A stretch of DNA of 64,000 bases, taken from NCBI GenBank assembly GCA_018650285.1, contig JABIGF010000020.1:124001-188000 (forward strand). Reading direction: 5' to 3'. The stretch is from Methanobacteriota archaeon (GTDB taxonomy: Archaea > Thermoplasmatota > Poseidoniia > Poseidoniales > Thalassarchaeaceae). The notes under the pieces were generated by a model. The model had not been told where the DNA came from. It saw only the letters and a program-made list of their open reading frames with translations, and did not search any database. Made by a program: the position numbers and the translations under genes. Each line of letters begins with the position of its first letter. Position 1 is the first letter of the stretch. This document shows positions 5,427 to 30,779 of this stretch, in pieces.

Positions 5427-5548
5427 AACATCAATTATTTCCCATTACTTAATCTACAATAATTGCACAATTTTGCCGGTGTTTCAGCAGTTAGTTAATA
5501 ATTTAAAACGACCTAAAACAACCTCTTGGTGTTGCGTTTATGGCTAGG

Positions 5549-5623
5549 TGCTCGCGCCGGGATTCGAACCCGGGTAGACGGGATGAAAACCCGCAATGAT
5601 GGGCCGGACTACACCACGCGAGC
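5549..5623 (-). tRNA. tRNA-Glu (anticodon TTC)
   Basis: Cloverleaf on minus strand: acceptor GCTCGCG/CGCGAGC, anticodon arm GCGGG-TTTTCAT-CCCGT, T-arm CCGGGTTCGAATCCCGG. Confidence 0.95.
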
Positions 5624-5667
5624 CATGCCCCTGCGGCGAGGGTTTAGTGAATAACTAAATCGGTTGC

Positions 5668-6297
5668 TCAATCCTCTATTGGACTCTCTTCCAACCCTTC
5701 CCACCAGCGCCATACCGGATAGAGTAATATGGCGCCTCCAAGGGATGCAAAAATGAATCCCCAACCAGTTAGGAAATCAATGAATTGCTCACCATAAACG
5801 CCGATGACAAGTACTTCTAAGCCAAATCTCATTGAGCGGCCAATAAAACCGGCCAGGACAAATGTGTGACGTTCCATTCGCCCAATTCCAGCACACCATC
5901 CAAGTACCTTGTAAGGAATTGGAGTAAAGGCAGCAATGAAAATTCCAAAACTACCAAACCTCTCAACTAGCATGTTGAACTTTCTTACAGCACTTTCACT
6001 AGCAAACCTGTCTAAGAGTGGTTGCCCCCATTTGTCGCCCATCCACCAGGCGACTAGTGAGCCAAGAACACTTGAAATCGTTACAACGAGGAAAATAGAA
6101 ATGAGGCGTAATGGATCTGATGCGTTTGCTGCCATTGGAATTACTAGCGCATCAGGCGGAATTGGTTGGATGAAGGCTTCAGTGAATGCCATCAAACCTA
6201 GCCCGAAAAGTCCAATTCCGTCGAACCATTGTACCACCTCTTGGGCGACACCAGTCAAAACACTCACATTTTGTTCGCTCACACCTTTTGCCATCAA
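5668..6297 (-). CDS. DedA/VTT (SNARE-associated) family membrane protein, YqaA-like
   Basis: Multi-TM; FTEAFIQPIPPDALVIPMA, GSLVAWWMGDKWGQPLLDRF, FTPIPYKVLGWCAGIGRM, FIGRSMRFGLEVL. Confidence 0.8.
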   Translation of the reverse strand: MMAKGVSEQNVSVLTGVAQEVVQWFDGIGLFGLGLMAFTEAFIQPIPPDALVIPMAANASDPLRLISIFLVVTISSVLGSLVAWWMGDKWGQPLLDRFASESAVRKFNMLVERFGSFGIFIAAFTPIPYKVLGWCAGIGRMERHTFVLAGFIGRSMRFGLEVLVIGVYGEQFIDFLTGWGFIFASLGGAILLYPVWRWWEGLEESPIED

Positions 6298-6353
6298 CCT
6301 TCGCCTTGGGTTGTGACCGGTATGCTCATTGCAGGGCGACTAGACCAATAGCC

Positions 6354-6836
6354 ATGCGTGTCTTAGACACCGCGGCACTTCTGCACTATCCTCTAGCCCA
6401 ATTGACAGGATATGTGGTCCCTAGTCAAAGAGAGGAGTTATCCCGCCTATCTCAAGATAGAGAACTATTGCTTGATGGTGCTAAATTAGTTTGGCGCTCC
6501 CCTCTTTCAGAATCAATTGATGGGGCGGTATTGGTGGCAACAAAAAGCGGAGACCTTGCTGGATTGTCTCCAGTGGATCTTGAATTGTTAGCGCTAGCCA
6601 TTGAATTGCAAGCTACGTTGGTAACCGATGATTACCGCTTGCAAAATTGCTGCGAGGTTGCCAAACTTCAGTTTGAAACAGTTGTCAATGATGGTATTTC
6701 AGAGCGTTGGGTGTGGGAACTTGTTTGCACTGGTTGTGGTTCAATCAATCAAAACCAATCAATTTCGTCAAAAAAGGGTGAACACGGCAATTGTGAAGAT
6801 TGTGGTTCACCCTATCGCGTCAGGAAAAAACGGTAA
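6354..6836 (+). CDS. nob1: PIN-domain endonuclease with Zn ribbon, NOB1-like ribosome-maturation nuclease
   Basis: MRVLDTAALLHYP (PIN N-terminus), DLELLALAIELQATLVTDDYRLQN, Zn ribbon CTGCGSINQ...CEDCGSPYRVRKKR; internal ATG at 6354 preferred. Confidence 0.8.
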   Translation: MRVLDTAALLHYPLAQLTGYVVPSQREELSRLSQDRELLLDGAKLVWRSPLSESIDGAVLVATKSGDLAGLSPVDLELLALAIELQATLVTDDYRLQNCCEVAKLQFETVVNDGISERWVWELVCTGCGSINQNQSISSKKGEHGNCEDCGSPYRVRKKR

Positions 6837-6861
6837 TTGAAAACAAACTCTAGTTTGCGTT

Positions 6862-7134
6862 TCATTCGTCTTCAAGTTCTTCTTTTATCTCGTCAGCACT
6901 CTTGCCTTCGATTTCAACACCAGCATCTTCTGCCTTCTCTACAATTTCAGCTGATTCAGTTTTGCCACCACGGTCAAGGTCATCTTCAGTCATTGTTCGT
7001 GAATCGGAAATACCTTTCTGAAACTCGCCTTTTGCCATGCCCAATGAGCGAGCCAATTTTGGCAATCTTTCAATTCCAAAGAAAAGGACAAACAGTGCGA
7101 GAATAAACAGCATTTCTGAACTTGATGGCATCAT
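6862..7134 (-). CDS. tatA: Sec-independent translocase subunit TatA/E-like
   Basis: Single TM then amphipathic helix: EMLFILALFVLFFGIERLPKLARSLGMAKGEFQKGI; acidic tail. Confidence 0.8.
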   Translation of the reverse strand: MMPSSSEMLFILALFVLFFGIERLPKLARSLGMAKGEFQKGISDSRTMTEDDLDRGGKTESAEIVEKAEDAGVEIEGKSADEIKEELEDE

Positions 7135-7281
7135 GGGTAACGACCTCTGACCTGTGGGGTTGTGTTTCATCCATTGAATGATTCGGCGGTAAATACCCTA
7201 TACCGCCGTAAATTGAAAGTTAATGCAGATGCCGATGATAACGGATTTTGTGAAGAAGAAGCCAAGTAATTCTAATTGCAG

Positions 7282-7542
7282 TTATCCGCCAGATACTGGC
7301 GGCAAAAACGCAACTTCAGCAGCATCTGGAATTGGCACATCGGGCGAACAAAATTCTCCATTCAAAGCAACTTTTGTTCCTTGCTCAAGCATATCAGAAA
7401 TCCCCATTCGTTCTGCCAACTCTTGAATGGTGGCTCCTCTAAAAAGTGGGAACTCTAGTGTTCTAGTGCCAAATTTTTCAGACAGTGGCCCAAATAAACG
7501 CACGGTGAATTTGACGGCCTTCTGTCCCTCACCTCCGCTCAT
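7282..7542 (-). CDS. MoaD/ThiS-family ubiquitin-like sulfur carrier / SAMP-like protein
   Basis: ~86 aa, VKFTVRLFGPLSEKFGTRTLEFPLFRGATIQELAERMG...VALNGEF...AEVAFLPPVSGG with C-terminal GG. Confidence 0.85.
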   Translation of the reverse strand: MSGGEGQKAVKFTVRLFGPLSEKFGTRTLEFPLFRGATIQELAERMGISDMLEQGTKVALNGEFCSPDVPIPDAAEVAFLPPVSGG

Positions 7543-7596
7543 GAGGCCCCACGCGTGAGACTGAGTATTATAGGTGTGCAACCTTCCCCCTCGTCT

Positions 7597-8307
7597 ATGG
7601 CAGTCGTACTTCAAGCAGAGCAATTGTGGAAAGTGTATGATACTGGTTCGGTAAAAGTCAAGGCTCTAAAAGGGGTCGACTTGACAATCGAAAAAGGAGA
7701 AATGGTTGCCATAATGGGGCCTTCAGGTTGTGGTAAAACCACCTTCTTGAATTGCGTATCTAGTTTAGATGAATTTTCTGCGGGAGAAGTCTTAGTTGAT
7801 GGTACTCCAATATCTCAAATGTCTGATAAAATACGAACTGAAATGCGGGCTAATCGGCTTGGTTTCGTGTTTCAATCTTTCAATTTGATACCGGTTCTCT
7901 CGGCGGTTGAAAATGTTGAATTACCACTTATTATGCAAGGTTTTTCGGGGAAATCAGTCCGCCAAAAAGCGCTTGATGCCCTTGATTCGGTTGGATTGAA
8001 AGAGTGGGCAGGCCATCTTCCCGCAGAGTTGTCAGGCGGACAGCAGCAGCGAGTGACCATCGCTCGTGCTTTTGTTCATGAGCCTGCATTAATTCTTGCC
8101 GATGAACCCACTGGTAATCTTGATACTACCACATCTGAATCCGTCATGGAACTCCTTGTCAACCTAAACCGTGAGAAGGGAATAACATTCATTCTTGTTA
8201 CTCATGAAGATAGTATTGCTCGGCAATGTACCCGATTGGTGACTATGCAAGATGGGTTGATAACAGAAGATGAGACATTATCTGCTAAATCAAATGAAGA
8301 AGAGTGA
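7597..8307 (+). CDS. ABC transporter ATP-binding protein (LolD/MacB/FtsE-like)
   Basis: GPSGCGKTT, LSGGQQQRVTIARAFVHEPALILADEPTGNLD, ILVTHEDSIARQCTRLVTMQDG; overlaps the downstream permease by 4 bp. Confidence 0.92.
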   Translation: MAVVLQAEQLWKVYDTGSVKVKALKGVDLTIEKGEMVAIMGPSGCGKTTFLNCVSSLDEFSAGEVLVDGTPISQMSDKIRTEMRANRLGFVFQSFNLIPVLSAVENVELPLIMQGFSGKSVRQKALDALDSVGLKEWAGHLPAELSGGQQQRVTIARAFVHEPALILADEPTGNLDTTTSESVMELLVNLNREKGITFILVTHEDSIARQCTRLVTMQDGLITEDETLSAKSNEEE

Positions 8308-11300
8308 CAGAGGTGATTCACTTGTCATCAACTGAAATAGAAGTTCCTTCATCTAGCAAAAGTACGCCTTTTAGAGTTGGAATGAGTATTCTAAAAGTTG
8401 TTAGTTTTATTCTTTTGACTTATGTCACTTATTCCATTTCAATCGCAATAGCAAAAAGTTCCAGTTACGATGGTATTGGATTTGGTTGGTATGCAACAGC
8501 ACTCAGCCTAGGCCTTGTGGTCGCTATTTCTGGTATTCAGTTAGTTGACTTATTCTTTAGTGCGCGTAAGAAAATGTTGGGGCAGATGGCAATTCGTAAT
8601 TTGCGCCGAAGAAAGCGAAATACAGCTTTAGTGGTTGTTGGTCTGCTTGTTGGCTCAGCAATTATCACGAGCAGTTTAGTCGTTGGAGATAGTTTGGATG
8701 CTACTCTGCGAGCCGAATTTGCTGAATCGTTAGATGAAGTTGATATTGTCATAGGTGGTTCAGATCCTTTTGGTCAGCCGACCTGGATGAACCAAACTAG
8801 AATGGAAAATTATGTAGATACACTATACAACCATTCAGACATTGATGCCGTATCTATTGGAATTAGTATGTCAGTTGGTTTGAAATCTGAATTGCATGAA
8901 ACCGTTGAAGCCAATAATGCTCACTGGTTAGCGATGGATGTAGATTATCAAATTCAAGGTGCTTGGAATCCATTCGGCGATGAGGCCGGTTCACTTTATT
9001 CAGAAATTGAAGAAGGCAATGCTTTCATCAGTGAAAAAGCATCAGTCAAATTGGAATTAGTTGTAGGGGATAGTGTTGAGGCTAGTTGGTCAGAAACATC
9101 TCCCGATGGACGTACTAGTCGAAAAACTACCAATTTAACAGTACAGAGAATTGTTCCTACTTCGGTTTCAGGATACGAGTATGGGAACGCTGCAACAATA
9201 TACACGACTTTAGAACAAGCCCAAGAATTACTTGGGCGAAATGGTGAAATTAACCGAATTGCCATATCTGCACAGGGGGGCGTATTAGACGCTCAAGATG
9301 CCGAAGAACGTGCGTTGCCATTCATCAATTCAACCCTTGACGATTTCATTGTTAGCCAAGATGTTGGATTAGAAATCGCCTCTGTGCCAGAGGATTTATC
9401 CCTTGCAGTACAGCGAACATCTGGTGACGGCTTGCTTTCTGGAGAAGAAGTAACAAGCCTTCGCGAGAACATCACCACGCTTTCTCCAGAGGTTGCAGTA
9501 GGTGAACTACTGATGGCACCAATTCTTCGAATTTCATACGAGGGAGAAAACCTCACTGGGTTAGTATCTGCTGAAATCACCTCTATTGATTCTGATAATG
9601 ATGCTGATTGGTATGCGACGCCTTCTGGATTATCTGTGCAGATGAAGAACAGCAGCCAATGGTTTCAGTGGATACCAAAGGGAGATGATACTGCTATCAG
9701 CGAAGTGATTTCAATTGCCGATGGTACCGCTCTTTCACTACACGCATCAGGAATTAGATTGTCTGCTCTAAGTGAAGATGTACCTTCACACGATATTGAG
9801 ATGCCAACTGGAGCAGGTTCACTTGTTGATTTAGTTGTCACAGAAGACGGCCAAGGTATCGCTCTTCGTATTGGCGAAAACGGGGTAGAATTAATCTTCG
9901 GGCCAGCAAATGCTAACTCTAGTGTAGCGTGGGAAAATGCCCACCTAAATCTATCTCATTTCAGCAGTGGTATTGAGGATGGTTCACTCGCATTAGAAGG
10001 CGATAATTTATTCGTTCAATTAGAGGGTGCCTTTACCAGTTTTACGTGCGAAATCGCCTTAGAAGAAATCAATATAGAATTTAATTCTTGCAATTGGAAT
10101 GTTGACCCTGTTGCAAGCCGTTCATTGGCTAACATTGGTGGCGTTGCTTGGGACCTATATGGTCACGATTTACAACTACTTTCATCACGTCTTTCTGGTA
10201 GTAATACATCTGCTCACGATCTCGGGCTAGCAACAGGTGAAATTCTCTCTGTTTCAGATACAGCAATCATTGTTGATGGCGGCGGACTATTTCTTTGGGA
10301 TGGAAGTAATTTTACTCTAGCAAATACACAACCTGCGAATGGTTCTGATGGACGTGCAGCGTGGAGCAGTGGAGAGCGAACAATCACAACTTCTCCATAC
10401 GGGGTATTGGTAGTTGATGGATTGAATGTAAGTGGTAGATTGCCATACCAGATTTCTGTTGACGGCTTCTCAAATTTGCCTTTAGTTGCAATTGCGTTAA
10501 CAGGCGGCATCGGTATTCCTGAGCCGGAAATAGACTCAGTATACCTGACTTCATGGTCTGCTAGTGGGCTTGCATTAACCCCTCCTCAAACTCTACAAGT
10601 AGTCGGTTTGATGGCTGCAGCGCGTGGCATATATGAGCCATTACCGCTTAATTTTACAGTAATTGTGCCAGAATTGCCCGCCCCGCCAGGGCAACCAGGC
10701 CTTGATGATATTTCAGTAGCAGTTGTCAACATCACAGATGCTCAAACACTACTCAATCGAGATGACGAAGTTCGAAGCATGATAATGATGTCAGGGCTCA
10801 TTCTTTTAGAAAATGACAATTTAACAAGATTAGAATCCAATCTATCCAACTGGGCAGATGAGGTTGCAAATGCGGAGGCCTTTGGAATACAAACAACTCC
10901 AATCAAGAGTGATATCCGCAAGGAGACAGGAGACGCTGGCGCTAATTTCTCCACACTTTTCCTAATTTTTGGCACATTTGTGATTTTTGCAGGCATCCTA
11001 CTAGTGATGAATCTCTTCGTGATGCTTGCTGATGAAAGGAAATCAGAGATGGGGATGTTACGTGCATTGGGGATGCAGAGGGGCGAATTGCGCTCAATGT
11101 TTGTCATGGAGGGTATTCTTGTAGGACTGATTTCAAGCGCCGTCGGCTCAATATTGGGGATTGGAGTTGCCAAGTTATTGATGGTCGCTCTTGATGCCGT
11201 AGTTTCATCAACATTCCAAGGCTCAATCCTCTTCGCATGGGAATGGCATAGCGTTTTGTCAGGTTTTGCGATTGGATTTTTAGTGACTTATTCTACTCTA

Positions 11301-16904: not shown

Positions 16905-19900
16905 ATGGTGACAAACAAGAATAAAGTGACCCTCGGGGGCAGCTGGCTTTTGCTGACGCTCCTGATGATTGGAATGAGTTGGAGCGCTGCGGTTTCGCCG
17001 GTAACGGAGAATTTGCAGACTTCTGAGAACGATGGGGCAGAGTCTAATGATGACCTGCTGGCTCTACCGGATGAGACAATTAATCCGGCAGATAATGATG
17101 AATTTGGATATGATGAGGGCGCCGAGTTAATCGGTGCTCGTACCGAAACCGCCAAGACTTTCTTGAAGGAAGAGGGCGGATTTGAGGCAGTCATCTCTCC
17201 AGTGCCAGTCCACTACATGAAGGACGGAGCATGGGAAGAGATCGATTTGACGATTCAGTCAAACGAGGAAGGTTGGGGAGTTACAGCAAACACCTATGAG
17301 ACCTATTTCTCAAATGACGCTCGTCAAGGTGTCCAAATGGTAGTCGATGGACAGACTATCCGCTACGGTATTATGCCACAAGTAGTAGTTCTAGATGCAA
17401 ACACGCTATCTCCAGAACCTTACATGGCTAAGCCTAGCAGTGAGCCCATCGATGTCGGTGCCAATGTAATTCGGTATCCGATGATGACAGGTCTCTCGCT
17501 AGACTACAAGGTCACTCCGACCCAGTTGAAGCAGAACCTTGTTGTCCGTGAGGCACCTAACCTGCTGGACCACCAGAAGGAATCAGGATACTTCGGCATA
17601 TCAGAGACAATGTTTCTGCCAGTCGGATATGCTCTATTCCTAGGTGAGACACCAATTGCAGATGGTGAATTGGTTAAGACCAACCAATCACTGAGTATTC
17701 GCAATTTGGAGACAGGTGATGAATTGGTAGCTATTCCGCAACCACTCGTTAATAGCGTTGAGCCTACAGCAGAAGGCACACACATTGGTGAATATGTTAT
17801 ACGAGTTCAGGGTGAGCAAGTTACTTTGATCACAGTTGTTGAGAATACATGGTTGATGGATAGTGATAACCGAACTTTCCCTCTCGTGATTGACCCAACT
17901 TTGGACAAAGGCGCTCAGCGTGCAGGATATGCGTACTATTACCGCATCACTCGATGGGGTTGGTACACATCTACCTACGAGTATGCATATGCAACTACTT
18001 CGATAGTATACACCTGTAAGGGCTCTGGTTCATCTTACAACACCTGCACATCAGGTTCCTATAGCTGGTATTACCGATATGCATGGTACCGTTTTGACTT
18101 TAACAGTGCAATCCCTTCAGGAGCAACTGTTCAGAGTACGGATTTCAAATCTAGTGTTGGCAGATATTATGCTGGCGGAGCTAGAACATATGAAGTGGCA
18201 GTTTTGAAGTCAGGTAGCAGTCAGTCAAGTAATACGATTGATCCGAGCAGTTATCTGTATTCTAGTGGCCGAAATTTGAATCGCTACATTAGAAACAGTG
18301 CGGATTCGTCTAACACTGTTACATTGAGTGACCCTGGTTACTATTGGAATAACAATCCAGTCCATTCTATTGGAATGAACACCAATGGAGTTAGTGACGT
18401 GCAGGACGCTATTGATGGAAACGGAGCAGGAAGTTCTGGTTACATCCTTGGTCTAGGTCTGAGAAATGTTGGAAACTCGCCATACTGGTATTGGTGTGGT
18501 ACAAACTACTACAGTTACTATGGATGTACAAGTTCCGCAAAGTATCCACACTTGCATGTGGATTACACCGGTGGTTCAGATACAGATGCTCCAGAAGATA
18601 CTTTTGTACCATATACTGGATTGACCACTCACCGTTCTGAGCAGAGAACTTTCTGGCTCTCTTTGAAGGACGTAACTGGTGTAGATACTACATCAAGCGG
18701 TGGCCCATCAATGAATTATCGTGTTGACAACGGTTCTTGGACTAATGTTCATGCAACTACCTTGGGCACATGTATCGCAGGATACTGGTGCAACTTCCGT
18801 GCTGTAATACCCGCAGTACAAGAAGGAGAATATGTTCAGTATTTCTGGGCATTCCAAGATTTAGTTGGCACAGTAGCTGGTACAACCGGTAATCCGAATT
18901 TCAAAACGTTGCCTGTAGGCGGAACTGGAACCCCAAGCAGTATTACATCTGCTCCGAGTTCGCCATACAATTACTTCGTACAACCTGCAGAGGAGGCTGA
19001 CGCATTCAATAGCGACGGCACGAAGAATAACAAGTGGCAACTAAAGATTGACCAATTGACCAATTTCCGATACTATTCGGTTTATCGATACTTCGATGAG
19101 CAAATAACATACTATGAAGATAGCCAAGAATGGATTTGGGAGTATGATACTTCTACATGTGGAACAGGAAATAACCAGTGTTTCAACACTGGTGCTTCTT
19201 ATGAAATGAGATACAGTCCAACTGTATCTGGATACTCATACACCAACTGTGCTCAAGTTGCAACATGTGTTGTAACAGAGCCTACTGGAATGAGCATGTC
19301 TGGCCAGCACGGCCCTGGCATGTCCACAATTTGGTGGTACAATGCTGCAGAAGGAGCTTTCACAGTAGTTGGTTTAGATGATGAAACTGGAATCGATCAG
19401 CGTGTTTCAGGACAATCAGTAGGTACACAAGGCGGTGGTCGTAATTGCGATGACTGTTACTCTGCAGTACCAATTCCTGGTGACATCACCATGAAGTTCG
19501 GTACATTGAGTGTTAACGCAACTTACACATCAAGTCGCAACACAAGAAACTATTTCTGTGTTAACAGTAACAACCACCCACTGTACTTCGCAACCACCTC
19601 TAGCAGTAACCCATACTGTCTCTACTCATACACAACATACCGCTATGACCGTCAATTTAACGGCTGGATGGCACCTGGTTTTGATGGACGTTGGTCCGCA
19701 AATACTGACATTACTCAGAAGGTGAGCATGGTTAGGCCGACGCCTGATATTTACCCTGTGGAAATTGACATGACAGGATTGATGGATACTCACAGTGAGG
19801 ATGACCGTACTGTTTCTGTTAAATTGATGGATGCAGGAGACCCTCCAACAGGTGTTAACTCATCAAGTGGTACTGATGCAAATGGTGTCCTTGAAGGACC

Positions 19901-22900
19901 ACAGATACTTTACCGTGTGTATAACGCAACGACTTCTTCGTGGAGTTCATGGACTACAAACGCAATGACCCAACAATCTGGCAAGACTCGAACACAGTGT
20001 GAGTTAATCAATTGTGAATGGTCTGCAACCATCCCTGGTCAAGACCGTGACAACTCTGTTGAATACAGCATTCACGTACAGGATAACAACAATAATTGGA
20101 ACAACACTACTGCTAGCAGTTATCAAATTGCAACACCAACAAAGGTATTCACCATTGAATGGCATGATATGAATTGTGGTTTTGGTCAACAATACAAGTG
20201 TTCGTATCAAGTAAAGATGTACGATGTAACAAACGAAATTGAGTATCATTACGATACTGGTTCATCAGCATACTATGATTACGAGAACATTGGTTACCAG
20301 AAGGGTGGCTCAACAGCAATTGGTGCAACTCTGAGAGAGAGAGGTCCAGGATATATTGCTGGAGCAAACCCATATGATTACAACTATCGTTTCTCAACAG
20401 ATGGTAACAGTCACGCAAACGAAAGAATGGATGCTGGTATGACTGAATTGTACAATTATGATGAGGTCTTCACTGGAAACAGCAATGGTAACCCATACAC
20501 ATACTACTGTACTCGTTACTGGTATGCGTATAAACACCAGTGTGCTGAAGTCATTGACTTGCCTGTTGGATTCGACTTTGAGTACTTTGGTACCACATAC
20601 AGTGGTAACAATAGTCACAAGATACACGCAATCCGTCACGGAGGCGCGTCGTTTAGTCAATCTACATCTAACACACCAATGCAGATGTCATACTACGGAT
20701 GGGGTGGATACTGGGAGACTCTCCCAAGTACTGCTTCATACGTACGCAACGCACAACTTGCACCATGGTTTGGTTACTACAGTTCATACTACTGCTACAA
20801 CAGTGGTAACAATGAGTGTAGTATCCGCACAAAGACAGTCCCATTCGATGGAGCTGGTATGGATGTCTATGCAGATATCACTACGCCAACCATATGGGAT
20901 AACGAAATGAGTCCAATACGCATTGTGCCTAGTGGAGATTATATCCGCGTTACAGCTGACTTGACTATCGAGCCAGGTGTAGAGGTACAATTTGCAGCTG
21001 GTAAGGGTATTGACATGGCAGGTACTTGTGCTAAGTTGGTCGCTTCAAGCAATTCAACAGCCCCAACAGGATTTACCAACCTTGGTAATGGAAATGGTAA
21101 GGGAATTGCATTCACAAATGGTGGATGCACAACTGCAAATACTGATGACAGACACACCTTTGATGGCGTGTATTTCTCTAACCTTGATGTCGCAATAAGT
21201 GCTGGTAGTCGCCACGGCAACTCACCTCACTTCAATGGTAATGTTGGTAACTTCACATTCAATGATGTTACCTTCACAGATGTTGGTACTGCAATCAAGC
21301 ACGGTTCAGGAACAGGTACTGGTTTTGATCTCTCAGGAGTTTCAATTACTAATGCAACCAACTCTTGTATTGATTTGCCTGATAACGCAGTGTTGAACTG
21401 GCTAGAAGGTTCGGCAACGAACTGTAACATGGGTAGTTCATCTACTGAAGGTGCAATCAAGACTGGCAGCGGAAGCGCAGTCACTCTTGAGAACTTGACC
21501 ATTGCTGATTCAGCATACAATGGTATCATGGGTTCAGCAGCAACAATTTGGGCAAGCAACGTCTCAATGAGCACAAGCGGTCTAATGAGTTCAGAACTTA
21601 GTGGAACAGCAATTGAACAACTTTCAACAGCAACAAGTGGAACAGAATTGTACGCTAACAATATTGACTCAGGATATGCTAACGCAGTTGTGTCATATGC
21701 AACGGATGCTATGACGCTGACAGACATTACAGGTGGTACAATTTCATTGACTCCTGCAGGTCCTTCAGGAACTGTTCTTGGAGCCTCTGGATGGAGTGCT
21801 ACAGATATTACAAGTACAGGTAATATGTTGTTAACAAGAACATCACCGAGTTCAATGGATAATGTAGACTTAGATGGTTACCTCCGCATGGACGGAACAG
21901 CATCTACAAGTGACACGGTTACAATTAACAATTTGGCAGCAGATGGAATTTCAGTCGCAGGTTGCGGTTGGAATGTACGTGCTAACAATGTCGACCTTGG
22001 TGATTCAACCAACGGTGTTTGGGCCACAGCTTCTTGCGGTTCAGGTAGTGCTTCGAGCACACTGACTGTAGTTGATGGTACAATGGACGGTAGTAGTTCA
22101 AATGGAAACATTGCCTACGCACGTAACGCTAAGGTTACTATTGTAGGAATTGACCTTACTGGGCAAACAGCAATGGGAAGTTACGTTGCAGTAGCAAGTA
22201 CCAATGGTGAAGTACGACTGATTGATGTATCATGGAGAACTAACGATTGTTCTGATGCAAACGGATGGACAGGAATGTCCAACTGCTGGGTTGATGTTTC
22301 TTCATCATCCGGTTCAATATATATCGGCGGAACTGCTCAAGTTGCAGCATATCGTATGATGAGTGGAGTGCCAGTCTTTGTGGCAGACCACTCAGTCACA
22401 ACCACAGCCGTTACAACATCGGGTACATGCCCAGGTACGGCTTGTGTGGTTACTGATGTGACCACAGTTGGTACATCTTACACTGATGGTTCTGGAAACG
22501 CAACCGCATGGTTGCTTCAGGACAAGTTAGAGAGAGTTAGTGGATCAACCTCTGTTACCGAGTCTTACACAGAACACCGCATTGCCGTCGCTGGTGGTGC
22601 AGGTCAAAACGAGACAGGCCCAGCAGATCTATGGTATACTGACCCTTGTACGATAAACAGTTTTGATTGTTCTATGCCAATAGGTGTGGGCGACCAAGCT
22701 TACTTGAAGTTGGAAGCATTCCCTCAAGATTGGAAAGGTGCTACAAAGGATTGTGCATGGTTGGCTACAAACACATCCACATCAAATGGATACTACTTGT
22801 ACACAATGCAGATTATCACATTGTCAACGGACTTAGTTCTAGATGGATGTAAAGTCCACTTTAACGGAACTAAGATTTCAGTGAACACTACTGCAACACA

Positions 22901-25900
22901 TGCACCAAAAATCATCCTCAAGAACGGAGGCGAATTGTTGATCTCCGAAGGTGGCGGTGAATCTGGTAACATGAAGGCAGTAACCAGCACTTATGGCTGG
23001 GAGATGGATATTCAGGATGGCGGAACATTTGTCCTAGATAACGCGTACATACGCGACATCAAGCAGAACTCCAATACCGGAGGAGCGCTGATGGTTGGAG
23101 ATGGAGCGACGTTGGAATTGAAGAATGGCGCCATAGTATATGGAAGTCAAACTGTTTCCTCGAGAATGTCTACTATCAAGGTTGATGGTGGAACATTGTC
23201 AGTTAACGACGCAAATGTCTACAACGCTCAGCAGACTGGTGTTGGTGTTTGGATTCAAGATTCCGGAACCACTGCCATTCAGAACATCGGTGTCACAGGA
23301 GCAGATACTGGTATTGTAATCAAGGATGCAGCCCCAGCAATTGACGGCTTCACTCTGAATGATAACACAGTTGGTGTAGAAATTGATGGCGGAATGACGC
23401 TACCAAGTATCTACCGTTCAACTCTACTTTCAGGACAGAGTCGTGGTTGGGAAACCTATGAGATGGATTTGACCGGATTGGCAAGTAATTACAATTACAT
23501 CCAGTTTGGTTTCAACAGTGTCTACGAGGGTGGAAACGTTCACCCACAATACAACTACTACACAAGTCGTTACTTCTCTGTGCACGACCGAATGCGTATT
23601 GCACTTAATGATGGAATTGACGATGACAATAACGGTAATGGAGATGAGTTGGAGAACTTCACAACGAATGCTGCTGGTAAGCAGATGACTGGGTACTATG
23701 ACTCAGGTGAAACATCTAACTTGGGTGACAGACTCAACCCTAACCACCCATCAAGAAACGATGGATATGCTCGTTGGGATTGTAACTTATACGGTTACCA
23801 ATACAGCCCAGGTGGATCTTACCAATACGGTTACTACTACTACCTCCTAAACTATGGACAAGGTGCTTACACTAATTCTGGTAATTACTACGGAGCAAAC
23901 GCATACCCAACAGAAATGGGTTTCACAACTGATATTGTTGACGGTTTGACGGGTGCACAGAACTACTACCCGTACGAGTACTGGGGCTATTACTGGCCAA
24001 CATGGTACTTCGGCCCACAATACCAAGGTGGAATCTTTACACCTCCAGAGGGCTTCAACGGTCTTTGGGGTAACTACAACGTATGTCTTTCATACGCATA
24101 CCGATATCAGACACCAACACCAAACGGCTGGAGATTATCATGGCCGATTGTTGATGTCAGCAGCAGCAGTGTAACAGAAGTATCAGCATTTATTGATATT
24201 CTACACAACTACGCTGATTATTATGGAGACCGCTACGACTTTGTCTTCCGCGGTGGAAGTGATATTAACAGTTTGATGGATGCAGATTGGGGCCGTGAAT
24301 TTGGAAAGGCTTCACTCGATAACGGTGTGATAGATGGTTCAGACACAGGTCTTCTCCTATCTGGTAACTTTGCAGCTGGCGACATTAGTGGCGTCACAAT
24401 AAACTCACCAGTCAACGAAGGTGTTCTAGTGTCAGGCAGTTCAGCGGCATCAATGGACGGTATTACTGTTAACGATGGTCGTTACGGTATTCGTACAACT
24501 ACAAATGCTGGCGGTTCTTTGAAAGCAATTAACACAGTTCTAGACAATCAGTCACAAGATGGTGTTGTTCTAGGATCTAGTTTCAAGTTGGATCTTGGTG
24601 GCTCAATCAGTAATGCAAGCAATGCTGCAGTGAATGTTCTAAGAACCAGTAGCAAGGATTGGAGCTTCGATAGCCTATCAATGGTTAACAATAACATCGG
24701 TCTATCCCATGCTGGAACAGGTGTAACCACCTGTACCGACTGTACAACTGGTGGCAACACAATGGATGTGATGACATCAGGTACTGTCAAGTGGGTTGAA
24801 GGAGATATTGATTTAGCCACGGTGGTAGCCACGGGTAATGGTGTATTAGAAAGAGCAAGATTACTAGATGTTACGATAAACGCTGATGGCAGCGGGGTCG
24901 CTGGTACTGGTGTATCAATGCTTGATGCTAATGACAAACGAGTAGGTGGAGGTGCGACGGATTCAAACGGCCAATTGCTCGACATGATATTCTATACCAA
25001 TTATGTTCGTGCAAGCGGATTAGAAGTGGTGAATTTAGCCGGATATCATATCATGACTGTTGCTAAAGTCCGATACGATACATCTGGCTCAATGAGTTCT
25101 CGTGTCGCAGATTTCAGATATGCAGATAAATCAGTATCTTTGGTCGATGGACCAGGTAACGCCGATACAGTCGCACTGACGGATCGGTTTGATGCACGTG
25201 TTTGTTATAGTTGGGAATCAACTTCGTATAACGTGTTACAATCGTGTTCTGGTGCCAACAATATTGGTACTGGAAGTTCAAGAACCAAATTGAATGGTGA
25301 TGGAGCCGGAGGTACGATTAAGGAATATGGTTACTTTGCAGCGATACCGACAGATATGAAAAATAAGGCGATTCTAATTGACTCGCCTTGGCTCTACACT
25401 AGAACTACTGGAGCGTCATTCAACGGTTCAACTGTTATTGTGAGTGGATTCTACAACAATGAGTGGTCTGATTTGTATGTGCAAAATTATGCCGGCGATG
25501 TCTACTTAGATGATACGCTGTGGGCAGGAATTAGTCCAAAGGATACAGCGTTCTTCAACCTAGGATATTACGGTGGATACAGTTATGGTAATTTCTTCGT
25601 GAATGATTCCACGCTGATTAATGTCGGTGCAGTTGGAAGTGGTGCAGGTTATTACAACCGTAATCCTGAGATGCATGTCACTAACAGTACTTTAGTGTCG
25701 TACTCTCAGTTGGAAGATGTGCAATCGGTATATCCTGAAGAGATTTGTATCCAGTCCGCTGGAACAGATGCTGGTGACTGGATTGTTGATAACAACACAT
25801 TGTACGACTGTACTGTTGGTGTGATGATTTACATTAACTACTATGCAACCAGCCCTGCCTATGGTGGATCTGGTACAGATGGTGCTCGATGGAGTAACAA

Positions 25901-28900
25901 CACATTGTATGATAGCACATATCTACCATTCTGGATTTACCTCCAGTCGGATGCTGATGATCTGCTTGTTGACAATAACACTGTAACAGGTTCAAAGAGA
26001 GTCCAATACGGTGTTTATGCACAAGACAATCGTCTGAACAGTGTAGAGATTCGTAGTAATACTCTAATTACAACTGACGAACCTATCTACTTGCGTAATG
26101 CTAAGCAGTGGGATATTAACAACAACACCATCTTTGGTGATGCTAATTCAGCACACTCTGGAATTTATGTCCGTAATGGTCATGGTTCTATTACAGATAA
26201 CACTTTGATTGATTCCGATGGAGGAATAAACGTCTATGGTGTCCGTTCTGGATATGATGTTGATATCAGTGGAAACACAATTGGTGCATCTGGAGGAAGA
26301 GTTTCACCAACTGCAACAGGTATCTACCTAGAGAACTGTGGACTTGCAGAAGTTACAATGTCTGGAAACCATATCAGCACAACATCTAACGCTCTATTGT
26401 CAGATGGTTGTGATGTATCTGACGTTGGCAGTGTATTTGCTAGCGCAGGTGGTTCAGCTTCACAGATTCACTCAGTGAACATTGAAGCATCTCAATTCAA
26501 CCCAGCGATCAAGAATATCAGTACAGGTGACACAGTCCGATGGATTTTGACACAGTACAACAGTGATCCAAACAACTACCAGCATACAACAACCAGTAAC
26601 ACAACTGGTCTGTGGGACAGCACTGCAATGAATTTGGGCAGCACTTTTGCCTACACATTCAACACAGCGGGTACATACGAGTACCACTGCAGTATCCACA
26701 GTTGGATGTCTGGAGTAGTCAATGTAGCAAACAGCACTGGTAACAGCAACCTGCAAACCTACGGAATTGACATCCTTGACGGAAGCGAAGAAGTCTCCTT
26801 AGATGGTACATCCATCGGCGGATTCAGTCTAGCATACCGCCAAGATGGTGGAGATTTGTCAGTAAGTGGCGGTACAGTAGTTACTGGTGACAACGGATTT
26901 GACTTGACCAATGTTGATGTAACAATCGACGGTCTAAGTGTTTCATCATCTGTTGGTGGCGGAATTGGTATTGATGCATCTTCCGACAACGGTCGACATA
27001 CACTTGACATCGCAAATTTCGATGCAACAGGTTCAATCGGTCTATTGACAGATGGTCACAATGATTTCCGCTGGAACGGTGGAGACTCAACAGCTGAAAC
27101 CACTTTGAAGACTCTTGGTGGTGCATCAGGAACAATTGAGAACATGACCGTAACAACAGATGGTCCATGGAGAACTGGCGGTAGTTCAACACAAATTAAC
27201 GCAGGTGCTTACTCAACCGTTACTAGTGTTGGAAACACACTCAACCAGAGTATGTTGACCATTGGAACAAGTGCAGTCATCCACGAGGGTAACCTCCTTG
27301 ACCTCACTGTTCTACACATGGGAAGCGCATCAACTGATGTTGGTTTGATGATTAAGTCAACTGACCTAGGTCGTTCTGAATATGTCAGCCCATCATGGCG
27401 CTCTAACATAATCTCAGTAGGTGAAGGTCCAAGTGGAGCAGCAGCAATTGGAGATTGGTTTGTAAGTCATCCACTTGGTGTATCCAACATTGCTGACGAC
27501 GCAATGCCTGGTGCAGTAGCGGTCAACCCTGACCCAACTAGCCAAGCAATGGGTTACATGACATGGGATAATTCAAACCTCAACATCATGCTAACTGGTG
27601 TGACATTCACACTAACTGATGGTATGTGGTACTTGGATACCCAGCAAGGCGGTTCAACAGTTGGTGACAACTGGTACGTCAGTCACAACCTGCCATTCGA
27701 GGCAGATTACATGCTATGGGCGGAAGACCTGAACAACTGGGGAATCCGCAAGGTTATGCCTGGTGGAAACTGGGTTGACGTCACAGCATCATGTAATGGT
27801 ATGCAGGCGGCTCCAGGATTCGGAATCCCAGGAGTAACAGCAACATTCAGTGGAATCAGCGAATTCTCAATCCCATGGGGTTGTATCGGAAATCCAACAG
27901 GTCGTGTGAAGACTCTAGCAATCATCCAGAATGAAAACACTGGACACGTGCTTGGTGTCTACCCACCACAATACTTCAACCAAACATGTGGTTGTGCACA
28001 GTCTTTCCAAGACTTCGGCACACTACAGTTGGAAGGTGGCGACTTAGCTGATGGAACATTAGATGATTATCTATTGATCCACCGAACTTTCACAGCAACT
28101 GGTGCAACAACACCACGCGCATATGATGTGACAGTAAAGGTGCGAGATGCAGACAACATTTACTGGGACTGGGGTACACACAGCAATTTGTCAATGGATG
28201 AAAACAGAGATATCACAATTGATATCATGCGTGCAAAGCCAGTTATTGCTGACCTTGTTGACGTCTCCTATGATGAAGACACAGGTGCACACACAATATC
28301 ACTGACAGACAAGGCTCAGGATTACCAACAGGCATCCAGTGCACTATCATGGACTGTGACAAATGATGCAACTAACCCAAGCAACGCATCGTCACCAATG
28401 GCCTATGATTTGACTGGCCAGACAATGACCATTACACCTGACGCAGATGAGTTCGGTAACCACCGTCTCTACTTGACCGTCATGGATGGGCATGGTTTGT
28501 ACAGCAGTCAGTCAATCCTAGTTGGTGTTGAGAACGTCAATGACGCTCCGTCAATCTTCAATGACCGCCATTCAACTGGTATGCCAGTCTTCTCGGAGAC
28601 AATGGATTCCTTAGGAAACGCAGTCTACAATGTAGTCGACGAACCACAACGCCGCCACCCAATTACTGGTGAGGAAATGACCTGGGACTTGATTACCAAG
28701 AACCTAGGTAGTTCCAATGGTGAAGCGTTTGTTGTTGATTTGGCAAACGAGCAAGACGGAACTGCAGATAACAACAGCGAGCAGGCACCTCAGACCTACA
28801 CATGGTCTGCAGTGACTGACCCAGCAGTTTGTGTGCCATTCAGTGTCAGCGTACAGAGTAACACATTGGTAATTGACCTCAACGAGGACAATGAAGCAGG

Positions 28901-30779
28901 TGGAACTTGTGATATCGTGTTAGACCTAACTGACGGTGCATCAGTCAACGATGCAGCAACCACTGTGAGTGTTCCATTCACAGTCAATCCAGTTAACGAC
29001 CAGCCACGTATCCTACCATGGAATGTGAGTCAAGGTGCATACATTACCACAGATTATCTTGACGCAAACGGCGACAAGGTATCAGGTAAGATCACTGACA
29101 CAACCGCAACCCATGATGCATGGTACTGGCAGGTTGATGAGGATACAGAGGACGCAGACCTCTTGACTGTTGATTTGACCGCAATGATGAGTGATAACGA
29201 CCATACAATCGAGCAACTAACTTGGGAAGTAGATGATACCCAGGCTTCGCTTGACCAGTGTCCGTATCAGAATTACTTCGCAGTAACGATTGATAACAAC
29301 GCACACACATTGGAGATTGACCTCATCCCTGACGCAACCACCGACGCAGATAGCAGCGAGTGGGATATGCTACAGGATGCAGATGGCGATGGTACACCAG
29401 ACGATGGTATCCACCAGATGAGTCCACGAAGTGGTACATACTGTGCTCTAAACCTATGGATGAATGATACAGCAACGCCTCCTGGACAATACAATTACGG
29501 GCAGTCAACAACTGGCACATACAACCAAGGTAGCAGCCAAGAAACACTATACATCCGTGTTCACAATGCAGTAGAGGCACGACCTGACTTCAACTTCGAC
29601 GAAGTCCGTGTTTCACCACCTCCAATGGACTTCAAGGGAATTGACGGTGTTCTACGTGAGACCATGGTCCCTGTATCAGTAAGTCTAGAGATGGAAGGCG
29701 ATGAGCCAATCAACTCTGATGGTACGTACAAGTATCTGTACGATTTGAGAGTCTCATACTATGTGTCAGACTGTTCAGGTTGCGCAGGACTCTACCAAGG
29801 TAGTGTACGTCTAGGAAGCAATGGACCTGGAAACGGTGACATGGCTCTACCAGACTGGAATGGAGAAACTGAAGTTGGAAGCTTTGTTCGATTGAACAAG
29901 ACTTCTGAGGACGTACGAGTGTTCGTAGATGTTCTAACAGTGAACCCATTCACTGGACAATACACTGACAACAGCAAGTACGAGAAGCCAGCATTGGAAG
30001 AGAAGAACTGGGCAGACAACAACATGACTGCTTCAGGAACCAACAGTGAGTTACCAATGATTGTCGAGACAAGGGCTGCATCAAGCGTTGCTTCGTTTGC
30101 ACCAAGTCTGATGGCAGTTGGTCTAGTCGGCATCTTTGTCGGCGCTCTCCTAAGCCGCTCCCGTTCGGAAGAGGATGAGGAAGAGTTCGAAGAGGAATCA
30201 ATGGTTGATGATGACCGTGCAGTAAGCCCAGTTATCGCGACCATCCTCTTGGTAGCAATCACAGTCGTCTTGGCTGGTGTAATCTACGTGTGGGCAGGCT
30301 CACTCGCAGACACCAGCACAAAGGGTGTTCCAAGACTGACCTTCACTGCAGAGTCAAGAACTGTGCAGGAAGTCACTGGACTACCTCAAGACCAGTGGCA
30401 CTGGAGGATCACCACATCATACGCAGCAACTGACTTAGCTACTCAAGCGGTCACTGTTTCGGTATTGTGGAATAATGCTAGTGGACAACAAGTGTACAAA
30501 ACTGCACTCGCACCATCGGGTGGAGATGTAGAACATGTGTATGGTTTCGCACCTCGTAACAGCGAAGCGATGGTCACCTTCTGGGATGACATATCGCATT
30601 GTGAGCGCGGCGGATCTGCTTGTATCACCGAATTCGGAGCTGGAGACAGAATCTATGTGCGAATGACCGACAATGACGGACTCATCGACAACGCAGAGAT
30701 TAGCATCCAGTACGAGTTGCCAGGTGGAGCAGCATACATCCTAAAGCAGTACACTGCTACACCAACCAGCATCCGTTGA
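16905..30779 (+). CDS. Giant (4624 aa) secreted surface protein: DNRLRE-like N-terminal region, Tyr-rich segments, right-handed beta-helix repeats, cupredoxin domain, cadherin/Ig-like region, TM, and C-terminal type IV pilin-like domain
   Basis: Uninterrupted 13.9-kb ORF; signal peptide (WLLLTLLMIGMSWSAAVSPV), TFPLVIDPTLD + YRFDFNSAIPSGATVQSTDF, PbH1-like NNTLYD/NNTVTG/NNTIFGD, VENVNDAPSIFND, TM SLMAVGLVGIFVGALLSR, DDDRAVSPVIATILLVAITVVLAGVIYVWAGSLAD. Confidence 0.9.
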   Translation: MVTNKNKVTLGGSWLLLTLLMIGMSWSAAVSPVTENLQTSENDGAESNDDLLALPDETINPADNDEFGYDEGAELIGARTETAKTFLKEEGGFEAVISPVPVHYMKDGAWEEIDLTIQSNEEGWGVTANTYETYFSNDARQGVQMVVDGQTIRYGIMPQVVVLDANTLSPEPYMAKPSSEPIDVGANVIRYPMMTGLSLDYKVTPTQLKQNLVVREAPNLLDHQKESGYFGISETMFLPVGYALFLGETPIADGELVKTNQSLSIRNLETGDELVAIPQPLVNSVEPTAEGTHIGEYVIRVQGEQVTLITVVENTWLMDSDNRTFPLVIDPTLDKGAQRAGYAYYYRITRWGWYTSTYEYAYATTSIVYTCKGSGSSYNTCTSGSYSWYYRYAWYRFDFNSAIPSGATVQSTDFKSSVGRYYAGGARTYEVAVLKSGSSQSSNTIDPSSYLYSSGRNLNRYIRNSADSSNTVTLSDPGYYWNNNPVHSIGMNTNGVSDVQDAIDGNGAGSSGYILGLGLRNVGNSPYWYWCGTNYYSYYGCTSSAKYPHLHVDYTGGSDTDAPEDTFVPYTGLTTHRSEQRTFWLSLKDVTGVDTTSSGGPSMNYRVDNGSWTNVHATTLGTCIAGYWCNFRAVIPAVQEGEYVQYFWAFQDLVGTVAGTTGNPNFKTLPVGGTGTPSSITSAPSSPYNYFVQPAEEADAFNSDGTKNNKWQLKIDQLTNFRYYSVYRYFDEQITYYEDSQEWIWEYDTSTCGTGNNQCFNTGASYEMRYSPTVSGYSYTNCAQVATCVVTEPTGMSMSGQHGPGMSTIWWYNAAEGAFTVVGLDDETGIDQRVSGQSVGTQGGGRNCDDCYSAVPIPGDITMKFGTLSVNATYTSSRNTRNYFCVNSNNHPLYFATTSSSNPYCLYSYTTYRYDRQFNGWMAPGFDGRWSANTDITQKVSMVRPTPDIYPVEIDMTGLMDTHSEDDRTVSVKLMDAGDPPTGVNSSSGTDANGVLEGPQILYRVYNATTSSWSSWTTNAMTQQSGKTRTQCELINCEWSATIPGQDRDNSVEYSIHVQDNNNNWNNTTASSYQIATPTKVFTIEWHDMNCGFGQQYKCSYQVKMYDVTNEIEYHYDTGSSAYYDYENIGYQKGGSTAIGATLRERGPGYIAGANPYDYNYRFSTDGNSHANERMDAGMTELYNYDEVFTGNSNGNPYTYYCTRYWYAYKHQCAEVIDLPVGFDFEYFGTTYSGNNSHKIHAIRHGGASFSQSTSNTPMQMSYYGWGGYWETLPSTASYVRNAQLAPWFGYYSSYYCYNSGNNECSIRTKTVPFDGAGMDVYADITTPTIWDNEMSPIRIVPSGDYIRVTADLTIEPGVEVQFAAGKGIDMAGTCAKLVASSNSTAPTGFTNLGNGNGKGIAFTNGGCTTANTDDRHTFDGVYFSNLDVAISAGSRHGNSPHFNGNVGNFTFNDVTFTDVGTAIKHGSGTGTGFDLSGVSITNATNSCIDLPDNAVLNWLEGSATNCNMGSSSTEGAIKTGSGSAVTLENLTIADSAYNGIMGSAATIWASNVSMSTSGLMSSELSGTAIEQLSTATSGTELYANNIDSGYANAVVSYATDAMTLTDITGGTISLTPAGPSGTVLGASGWSATDITSTGNMLLTRTSPSSMDNVDLDGYLRMDGTASTSDTVTINNLAADGISVAGCGWNVRANNVDLGDSTNGVWATASCGSGSASSTLTVVDGTMDGSSSNGNIAYARNAKVTIVGIDLTGQTAMGSYVAVASTNGEVRLIDVSWRTNDCSDANGWTGMSNCWVDVSSSSGSIYIGGTAQVAAYRMMSGVPVFVADHSVTTTAVTTSGTCPGTACVVTDVTTVGTSYTDGSGNATAWLLQDKLERVSGSTSVTESYTEHRIAVAGGAGQNETGPADLWYTDPCTINSFDCSMPIGVGDQAYLKLEAFPQDWKGATKDCAWLATNTSTSNGYYLYTMQIITLSTDLVLDGCKVHFNGTKISVNTTATHAPKIILKNGGELLISEGGGESGNMKAVTSTYGWEMDIQDGGTFVLDNAYIRDIKQNSNTGGALMVGDGATLELKNGAIVYGSQTVSSRMSTIKVDGGTLSVNDANVYNAQQTGVGVWIQDSGTTAIQNIGVTGADTGIVIKDAAPAIDGFTLNDNTVGVEIDGGMTLPSIYRSTLLSGQSRGWETYEMDLTGLASNYNYIQFGFNSVYEGGNVHPQYNYYTSRYFSVHDRMRIALNDGIDDDNNGNGDELENFTTNAAGKQMTGYYDSGETSNLGDRLNPNHPSRNDGYARWDCNLYGYQYSPGGSYQYGYYYYLLNYGQGAYTNSGNYYGANAYPTEMGFTTDIVDGLTGAQNYYPYEYWGYYWPTWYFGPQYQGGIFTPPEGFNGLWGNYNVCLSYAYRYQTPTPNGWRLSWPIVDVSSSSVTEVSAFIDILHNYADYYGDRYDFVFRGGSDINSLMDADWGREFGKASLDNGVIDGSDTGLLLSGNFAAGDISGVTINSPVNEGVLVSGSSAASMDGITVNDGRYGIRTTTNAGGSLKAINTVLDNQSQDGVVLGSSFKLDLGGSISNASNAAVNVLRTSSKDWSFDSLSMVNNNIGLSHAGTGVTTCTDCTTGGNTMDVMTSGTVKWVEGDIDLATVVATGNGVLERARLLDVTINADGSGVAGTGVSMLDANDKRVGGGATDSNGQLLDMIFYTNYVRASGLEVVNLAGYHIMTVAKVRYDTSGSMSSRVADFRYADKSVSLVDGPGNADTVALTDRFDARVCYSWESTSYNVLQSCSGANNIGTGSSRTKLNGDGAGGTIKEYGYFAAIPTDMKNKAILIDSPWLYTRTTGASFNGSTVIVSGFYNNEWSDLYVQNYAGDVYLDDTLWAGISPKDTAFFNLGYYGGYSYGNFFVNDSTLINVGAVGSGAGYYNRNPEMHVTNSTLVSYSQLEDVQSVYPEEICIQSAGTDAGDWIVDNNTLYDCTVGVMIYINYYATSPAYGGSGTDGARWSNNTLYDSTYLPFWIYLQSDADDLLVDNNTVTGSKRVQYGVYAQDNRLNSVEIRSNTLITTDEPIYLRNAKQWDINNNTIFGDANSAHSGIYVRNGHGSITDNTLIDSDGGINVYGVRSGYDVDISGNTIGASGGRVSPTATGIYLENCGLAEVTMSGNHISTTSNALLSDGCDVSDVGSVFASAGGSASQIHSVNIEASQFNPAIKNISTGDTVRWILTQYNSDPNNYQHTTTSNTTGLWDSTAMNLGSTFAYTFNTAGTYEYHCSIHSWMSGVVNVANSTGNSNLQTYGIDILDGSEEVSLDGTSIGGFSLAYRQDGGDLSVSGGTVVTGDNGFDLTNVDVTIDGLSVSSSVGGGIGIDASSDNGRHTLDIANFDATGSIGLLTDGHNDFRWNGGDSTAETTLKTLGGASGTIENMTVTTDGPWRTGGSSTQINAGAYSTVTSVGNTLNQSMLTIGTSAVIHEGNLLDLTVLHMGSASTDVGLMIKSTDLGRSEYVSPSWRSNIISVGEGPSGAAAIGDWFVSHPLGVSNIADDAMPGAVAVNPDPTSQAMGYMTWDNSNLNIMLTGVTFTLTDGMWYLDTQQGGSTVGDNWYVSHNLPFEADYMLWAEDLNNWGIRKVMPGGNWVDVTASCNGMQAAPGFGIPGVTATFSGISEFSIPWGCIGNPTGRVKTLAIIQNENTGHVLGVYPPQYFNQTCGCAQSFQDFGTLQLEGGDLADGTLDDYLLIHRTFTATGATTPRAYDVTVKVRDADNIYWDWGTHSNLSMDENRDITIDIMRAKPVIADLVDVSYDEDTGAHTISLTDKAQDYQQASSALSWTVTNDATNPSNASSPMAYDLTGQTMTITPDADEFGNHRLYLTVMDGHGLYSSQSILVGVENVNDAPSIFNDRHSTGMPVFSETMDSLGNAVYNVVDEPQRRHPITGEEMTWDLITKNLGSSNGEAFVVDLANEQDGTADNNSEQAPQTYTWSAVTDPAVCVPFSVSVQSNTLVIDLNEDNEAGGTCDIVLDLTDGASVNDAATTVSVPFTVNPVNDQPRILPWNVSQGAYITTDYLDANGDKVSGKITDTTATHDAWYWQVDEDTEDADLLTVDLTAMMSDNDHTIEQLTWEVDDTQASLDQCPYQNYFAVTIDNNAHTLEIDLIPDATTDADSSEWDMLQDADGDGTPDDGIHQMSPRSGTYCALNLWMNDTATPPGQYNYGQSTTGTYNQGSSQETLYIRVHNAVEARPDFNFDEVRVSPPPMDFKGIDGVLRETMVPVSVSLEMEGDEPINSDGTYKYLYDLRVSYYVSDCSGCAGLYQGSVRLGSNGPGNGDMALPDWNGETEVGSFVRLNKTSEDVRVFVDVLTVNPFTGQYTDNSKYEKPALEEKNWADNNMTASGTNSELPMIVETRAASSVASFAPSLMAVGLVGIFVGALLSRSRSEEDEEEFEEESMVDDDRAVSPVIATILLVAITVVLAGVIYVWAGSLADTSTKGVPRLTFTAESRTVQEVTGLPQDQWHWRITTSYAATDLATQAVTVSVLWNNASGQQVYKTALAPSGGDVEHVYGFAPRNSEAMVTFWDDISHCERGGSACITEFGAGDRIYVRMTDNDGLIDNAEISIQYELPGGAAYILKQYTATPTSIR
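26461..26733 (+). other. Amicyanin-type cupredoxin (type 1 copper) domain inside the giant surface protein
   Basis: QIHSVNIEASQFNPAIKNISTGDTVRWILTQYNSDPNNYQHTTTS...AYTFNTAGTYEYHCSIHSWMSGVVNV with candidate ligands H..C-x2-H-x2-M. Confidence 0.8.
30201..30779 (+). other. Archaeal type IV pilin-like domain in frame at the C-terminus of the giant ORF (possible separate internal start at ATG 30201)
   Basis: MVDDDRAVSPVIATILLVAITVVLAGVIYVWAGSLADTSTKGVPRLTF, matching the archaeal pilin N-terminal pattern RAVSPVI... Confidence 0.8.

Follow-up and report, generated by a model that had tools for sequence, protein, structure and literature searches.

A giant surface protein of Poseidoniales carries an in-frame type IV pilin and is probably divided by a prepilin peptidase

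The Poseidoniales are uncultured and rank among the most abundant archaea of the surface ocean. Here we describe a gene in a stretch of 64,000 nucleotides from a Thalassarchaeaceae genome of this order (contig JABIGF010000020.1, positions 124,001 to 188,000; "the window", to which all coordinates refer), in which one reading frame encodes both a giant surface protein and an archaeal type IV pilin. Prepilin peptidases ordinarily trim short leaders off the extreme N-termini of pilins. In the reading that we favor, with moderate confidence and from sequence evidence, the product of this gene is a fused preprotein that a prepilin peptidase cuts into a membrane-anchored giant protein and a pilin for a pilus. 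One translation product would probably thereby yield both proteins. The parts of the gene are as follows (aa, amino acids; TM, transmembrane; AF2, AlphaFold2).

16905–30779, + strand: giant open reading frame (ORF) of 4,624 aa, with secreted ectodomain, C-terminal TM anchor, cytoplasmic linker and type IV pilin
16905–16991, + strand: N-terminal signal peptide-like segment, aa 1–29 (hydrophobic peak at aa 15–33; present in relatives too)
26478–26726, + strand: plastocyanin/azurin-like domain in the ectodomain, aa 3192–3274 (PF00127, 22.6 bits; cut-off 21.2)
28272–28565, + strand: weak Tandem-95/cadherin-like repeat region, aa 3790–3887 (NF012211, 32.6 bits, under the cut-off)
30096–30158, + strand: TM1, predicted C-terminal anchor of the surface protein, out-to-in, aa 4398–4418 (hydropathy 2.19; helix in AF2)
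30159–30221, + strand: acidic, predicted cytoplasmic linker with a prepilin-type leader (MVDDDRA) at its end, aa 4419–4439
30219–30224, + strand: predicted prepilin-peptidase scissile bond between A4439 and V4440; segment across this junction, EEESMVDDDRAVSPV
30222–30308, + strand: pilin N-terminal helix, in-to-out, aa 4440–4468 (PF07790/TIGR02537)
30309–30776, + strand: pilin beta head, aa 4469–4624 (beta-rich in AF2; PDB matches to archaeal filament subunits)

The ORF begins with ATG and contains no internal stop. Toward its end, the TM segment ending in FAPSLMAVGLVGIFVGALLSR (aa 4398–4418) is followed by the linker SRSEEDEEEFEEESMVDDDRA and then by VSPVIATILLVAITVVLAGVIYVWAGSLAD; the methionine at aa 4433 is encoded by the ATG at 30201. 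Only three TM-like segments are present, namely the N-terminal signal, TM1 and the pilin helix. The topology argued in the first-pass annotation, by which TM1 ends inside the cell and the linker and pilin site would be cytoplasmic, holds, as does its in-frame fusion of TM segment, linker and pilin. Few domains are recognizable in the ectodomain: cupredoxin models match the plastocyanin-like stretch weakly, the tandem-95 repeat is likewise weak, and Pfam gives no match to a PilY1 or DUF2341 domain in the giant. To call the ectodomain an adhesin is a guess, although an adhesive or substrate-binding role is what we infer.

The last 187 residues contain an archaeal type IV pilin domain. Pilin_N (PF07790) matches at aa 4438–4483 with 37.8 bits (cut-off 25.2) and TIGR02537 at aa 4436–4466 with 45.8 bits (cut-off 20), and the class III cleavage motif RA/VSPVIATIL (slashes mark cleavage sites) immediately precedes the hydrophobic helix, as in type IV prepilins. 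Archaeal prepilins start with a short leader, whereas here the "leader" is a secreted, membrane-anchored protein of 4,439 aa; the motif lies at aa 4439–4440 of 4,624 rather than at the extreme N-terminus, and is similarly placed in relatives. AF2, run on an alignment of 30 relatives chosen by similarity and not by motif (alignment A1), predicts helices at aa 4399–4426 and 4442–4468 followed by a beta head (pLDDT 64.7, pTM 0.50). The best PDB matches of the pilin model are to a Cuniculiplasma filament and archaella, and the Foldseek matches (8rey, 9eq7 and 5z1l) point with moderate confidence to the beta-strand head of a filament subunit. The predicted structure thus supports a pilin fold without deciding how the domain assembles.

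Purifying selection on the pilin helix is very strong, with 75 synonymous and no non-synonymous differences among 210 within-genus codon comparisons. Over the linker the corresponding counts are 37 and 31, in frame throughout. The helix, which has no K or R, is identical at 25 of 29 positions to that of a stand-alone pilin from the same genome, and the beta head is conserved in alignment A1.

To define the distribution of the fusion, we used the last 339 aa of the giant as a query against 59 relatives, and found long ORFs in both Poseidoniales (Marine Group II) families, Thalassarchaeaceae and Poseidoniaceae. Most measure 4,513–4,750 aa where the contig suffices, and one reaches 5,478 aa (G053). 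TM1, linker and pilin share a single stop-free frame at all 120 loci checked across the two families and at all 20 further loci from divergent genera, which were chosen by hidden Markov model (HMM) score; the frame is also intact in a single-contig genome of 2.06 Mb (G036), and linker lengths differ among relatives by whole codons. All 30 sequences of alignment A1 contain TM1 (SFAPSxxAVxLxGxFVxAL), the acidic stretch and AVSPVIATIL, and most have a basic pair. No stand-alone version of the giant's pilin was found among the 120 and 20 loci. Comparison of orthologous loci, proposed in the first-pass annotation as a check, accordingly gave no stop, no frameshift and no separate pilin ORF starting at ATG 30201.

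The ectodomain is conserved together with the pilin in one ORF, and its homology extends over nearly the full length, with identities of 45% to G014, 35–38% to G047 and 34–36% to G036; the full-length homologues so compared measure about 4,513–4,690 aa. A class-wide search recovers the fusion in well over 100 genomes. In a phylum-wide search the long form occurs in Poseidoniales only, and the matching ORFs outside the order are short, mostly of 150–260 aa. In Marine Group III (MGIII), which is sister to Poseidoniales within the class, such ORFs reach ∼385 aa, and those examined have the pilin motif close to their start; a query with the N-terminal 1,100 aa of the giant gave no match there, an empty answer that is weak at such a distance. 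On the sequences searched, the fusion is an invention at the level of the order, because only ordinary stand-alone pilins were found outside Poseidoniales.

Several related arrangements came to light in these searches. A second, divergent giant-pilin fusion is present in a Thalassarchaeaceae metagenome-assembled genome (L200, G009:C255, 1–2586), on a contig cut at both ends; it shares the TM-linker-AVSPV layout, with a longer, Glu-rich linker. Two stand-alone pilins encoded close together are enlarged, at 399 and 506 aa, and bear the motif at their N-termini (L197, G002:C89, 4248–5447 and 7754–9274). Secreted-looking proteins of ∼440–690 aa (L201, L202 and L203) match the head of the fused pilin and have no recognized pilin helix. 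One contig with the Poseidoniales fusion is recorded under a Verrucomicrobiales bacterium (L105, NZEQ01000026.1) and is probably mis-binned.

Because loci L051–L130 were fetched by the pattern AVSPVIATI, they were left out of the count of motif invariance; they also bias the entropy table at the motif itself, although not at the linker positions before it. Ala(−1) and VSPVIATIL are invariant in the 30 similarity-selected and 20 HMM-selected sequences. Ala(−1) falls outside the predicted mature pilin and is nonetheless invariant, whereas the position before it is among the most variable. The linker is acidic in every relative, and its end, (M/L/I)-x-D-D-E-x-A/VSPV, resembles the leaders of the stand-alone prepilins of the class, such as RRIVNDEQA/VSPV, with which it shares a hydrophobic residue at −7 and D/N-D-E-x-A. 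RA/VS is also the cleavage site of Haloferax volcanii PilA4-6 (PMC4371748).

On the other side of the linker, the VPSFxPSLxAVxLxG anchor of TM1 also terminates pilin-less surface proteins of ∼630 aa from the window's genus (L225 and L226), and a neighboring 1,084-aa protein ends in a TM segment plus acidic tail. Since these proteins end alike, TM1 and its acidic tail resemble an ordinary C-terminal anchor. As the simplest origin, we infer that two complete proteins, an anchored surface protein and a prepilin, were joined in frame at the base of the order.

Processing might proceed as follows. The N-terminal signal would export the ectodomain of ∼4,400 aa until TM1 halts transfer, leaving a short acidic segment in the cytoplasm. 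The pilin helix would then return into the membrane and place the beta head outside as well. The bond between A4439 and V4440 would most likely be cut by the PibD/FlaK-like peptidase of Poseidoniales, giving a TM1-anchored surface protein of ∼4,400 aa and a mature pilin of 185 aa. Given a helix almost identical to that of a stand-alone pilin, the released pilin is probably incorporated into a type IV pilus. The fusion would set the ratio of giant to pilin and put the giant at the site of pilus assembly.

The machinery for such processing is encoded in the same genome, which has PilC/TadC-like platform proteins and a divergent PibD/FlaK-like peptidase that retains the two catalytic aspartates. 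This is a candidate for the PibD-like enzyme that the first-pass annotation called for. The peptidase family is found in 44 of the 59 relatives, the window's genome included; D26 and HGGAD are invariant in seven aligned sequences, and the family matches FlaK, PF06847 and PF01478 weakly. A phmmer search of the peptidase against PDB gave no match. An initial PF01478 search returned a single sub-threshold match, which led to this divergent family, and the absence of a prepilin peptidase was rejected on that basis. The PF01478 model misses the Poseidoniales peptidase, and annotation pipelines may call it absent. At one locus of the window's genome (L193, G000:C8:73000-88000, 4568–9482), the peptidase gene (G000:C8:77576-78559) is clustered with genes for KaiC/FlaH-like ATPases, named by eye, and for a stand-alone pilin of 167 aa; the cluster also holds a 357-aa protein with a pilin-like start.

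Fusion and machinery also occur together across genera. T2SSF proteins and the peptidase are present in each of the 11 fusion-bearing genera. Five of the seven fusion-negative genera have neither, and in the other two (g5 and g6) the peptidase is kept in divergent form, with no more than one T2SSF protein. The ectodomain was not found in the seven fusion-negative genera, nor did a query with the N-terminal 1,100 aa recover a pilin-less orthologue of the giant in pilus-less genera. This pattern fits a dependence of the giant on the pilus system. Within the Thalassarchaeaceae (family f1), genera g4 and g8–g11 lack the platform, the peptidase, a close pilin match and the giant, an apparent wholesale loss.

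Some observations weigh against cleavage into giant and pilin. The co-occurrence is confounded by relatedness, and independent losses are few. The giant gene lies apart from the peptidase and PilC loci (contig C7 versus C8, C5 and C3), and no peptidase was detected in one fusion-bearing genome (G002), although its assembly is only 77% complete. The AF2 model is only moderate by the scores given above. Moreover, the split gene is seen in no lineage, although a mere separation of two proteins might permit splitting.

This last observation also favors a fusion that remains uncut, an alternative that we regard as possible but unlikely. The product would be a two-pass protein whose pilin helix and head dock at the pilus base or the PilC/TadC platform, as a tether or hairpin anchor. 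A fusion never split in the examined loci suggests that physical linkage matters, and contact with the assembly platform would also explain conservation of the helix. However, a hairpin anchor alone would not require the prepilin-leader motif that is kept, nor an invariant Ala(−1), outside the mature pilin, beside a freely varying neighbor.

It is improbable that ATG 30201 acts as an internal start for separate synthesis of the pilin, so that giant and pilin share DNA as partly independent products. Many sequences do have an ATG here, preceded by a purine-rich stretch. Many relatives, however, have TTG, CTG or no start codon there, with M/L/I retained as the residue, and stand-alone leaders have I/V at the corresponding position. 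Three of 30 relatives (L010, L018 and L025) have no ATG, GTG or TTG in the linker, a fourth (L012) has CTG only, and codon-level selection runs on through linker and TM1. With the start codon not conserved and three of 30 linkers lacking one, internal translation is unlikely as a general mechanism. Among the readings offered in the first-pass annotation, this one is disfavored, and cleavage is preferred for its invariant Ala(−1), leader motif and co-occurring peptidase and machinery.

We give a similarly low probability to a cut pilin part that acts as a folding, export or quality-control tail signaling full export, and is not built into a pilus. A C-terminal place on a secreted protein of 4,400 aa would suit a completion signal, and the data never show the giant and the pilin apart, but the part retains the H-domain of filament-forming pilins (the 25 of 29 positions noted above) and a conserved beta head. 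An artefact of assembly or gene calling that fused two neighboring genes is negligible as an explanation, given an identical frame in well over 100 independent assemblies, indels that are in-frame only and synonymous-rich substitutions over the junction. A missed stop or frameshift between giant and pilin is refuted by the order-wide conservation, and chance is excluded with it, because the frame is conserved in 30 relatives and 120 loci in total.

The protein differs from the systems that it most resembles. It shares RA/VSPV, hydrophobic helix, beta head and the leader-like linker end with archaeal type IV pilins, including H. volcanii PilA and the stand-alone pilins of Poseidoniales and MGIII. 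Modular pilins, such as Streptococcus sanguinis PilB, likewise join a pilin to a large functional module in frame (PMC8179133), but there the module lies C-terminal to the pilin and is not separated from it. In the giant the module precedes the cleavage site, processing would free the pilin, and only the head of ∼155 aa follows the pilin helix. PilY1 and DUF2341 proteins, including archaeal DUF2341 proteins in type IV pilus loci, are also large surface proteins linked to these pili; they are encoded by separate genes and have no pilin domain. The passages on such loci found in the archaeal census describe large separate proteins and do not mention a pilin-giant fusion (PMC4858521).

For Poseidoniales themselves, an archaellum operon has been described and archaellum-based adhesion proposed (PMC6461757, PMC6336850). 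The organisms and the theme of a surface filament in attachment are the same, but the filament there is an archaellum and not this pilin; the word "pilin" is absent from the four Marine Group II papers searched, which mention archaella and adhesion and include these two. A literature search for fused or internal pilin sites, whose coverage did not extend to the 2012 Marine Group II genome paper, found nothing relevant.

To our knowledge, no prepilin-peptidase site has been described within a giant-pilin fusion of this kind. A cleavage site conserved inside the protein, some 4,400 residues from its start, would, if true, widen the scope of class III processing. We consider the chances somewhat better than even that prepilin peptidase acts here as a polyprotein processor, cutting in a cytoplasmic loop between two membrane passes to give giant and pilin at 1:1, as an order-wide innovation. 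Cleavage predicts a neo-N-terminal VSPVIATIL peptide that is testable in existing marine metaproteomes. In the papers considered here, attachment of Poseidoniales to particles or polymers is so far discussed with reference to archaella, flotillins and thrombospondins; cleavage of the fusion, if true, would be a new way in which a giant surface protein is coupled with a type IV pilus.

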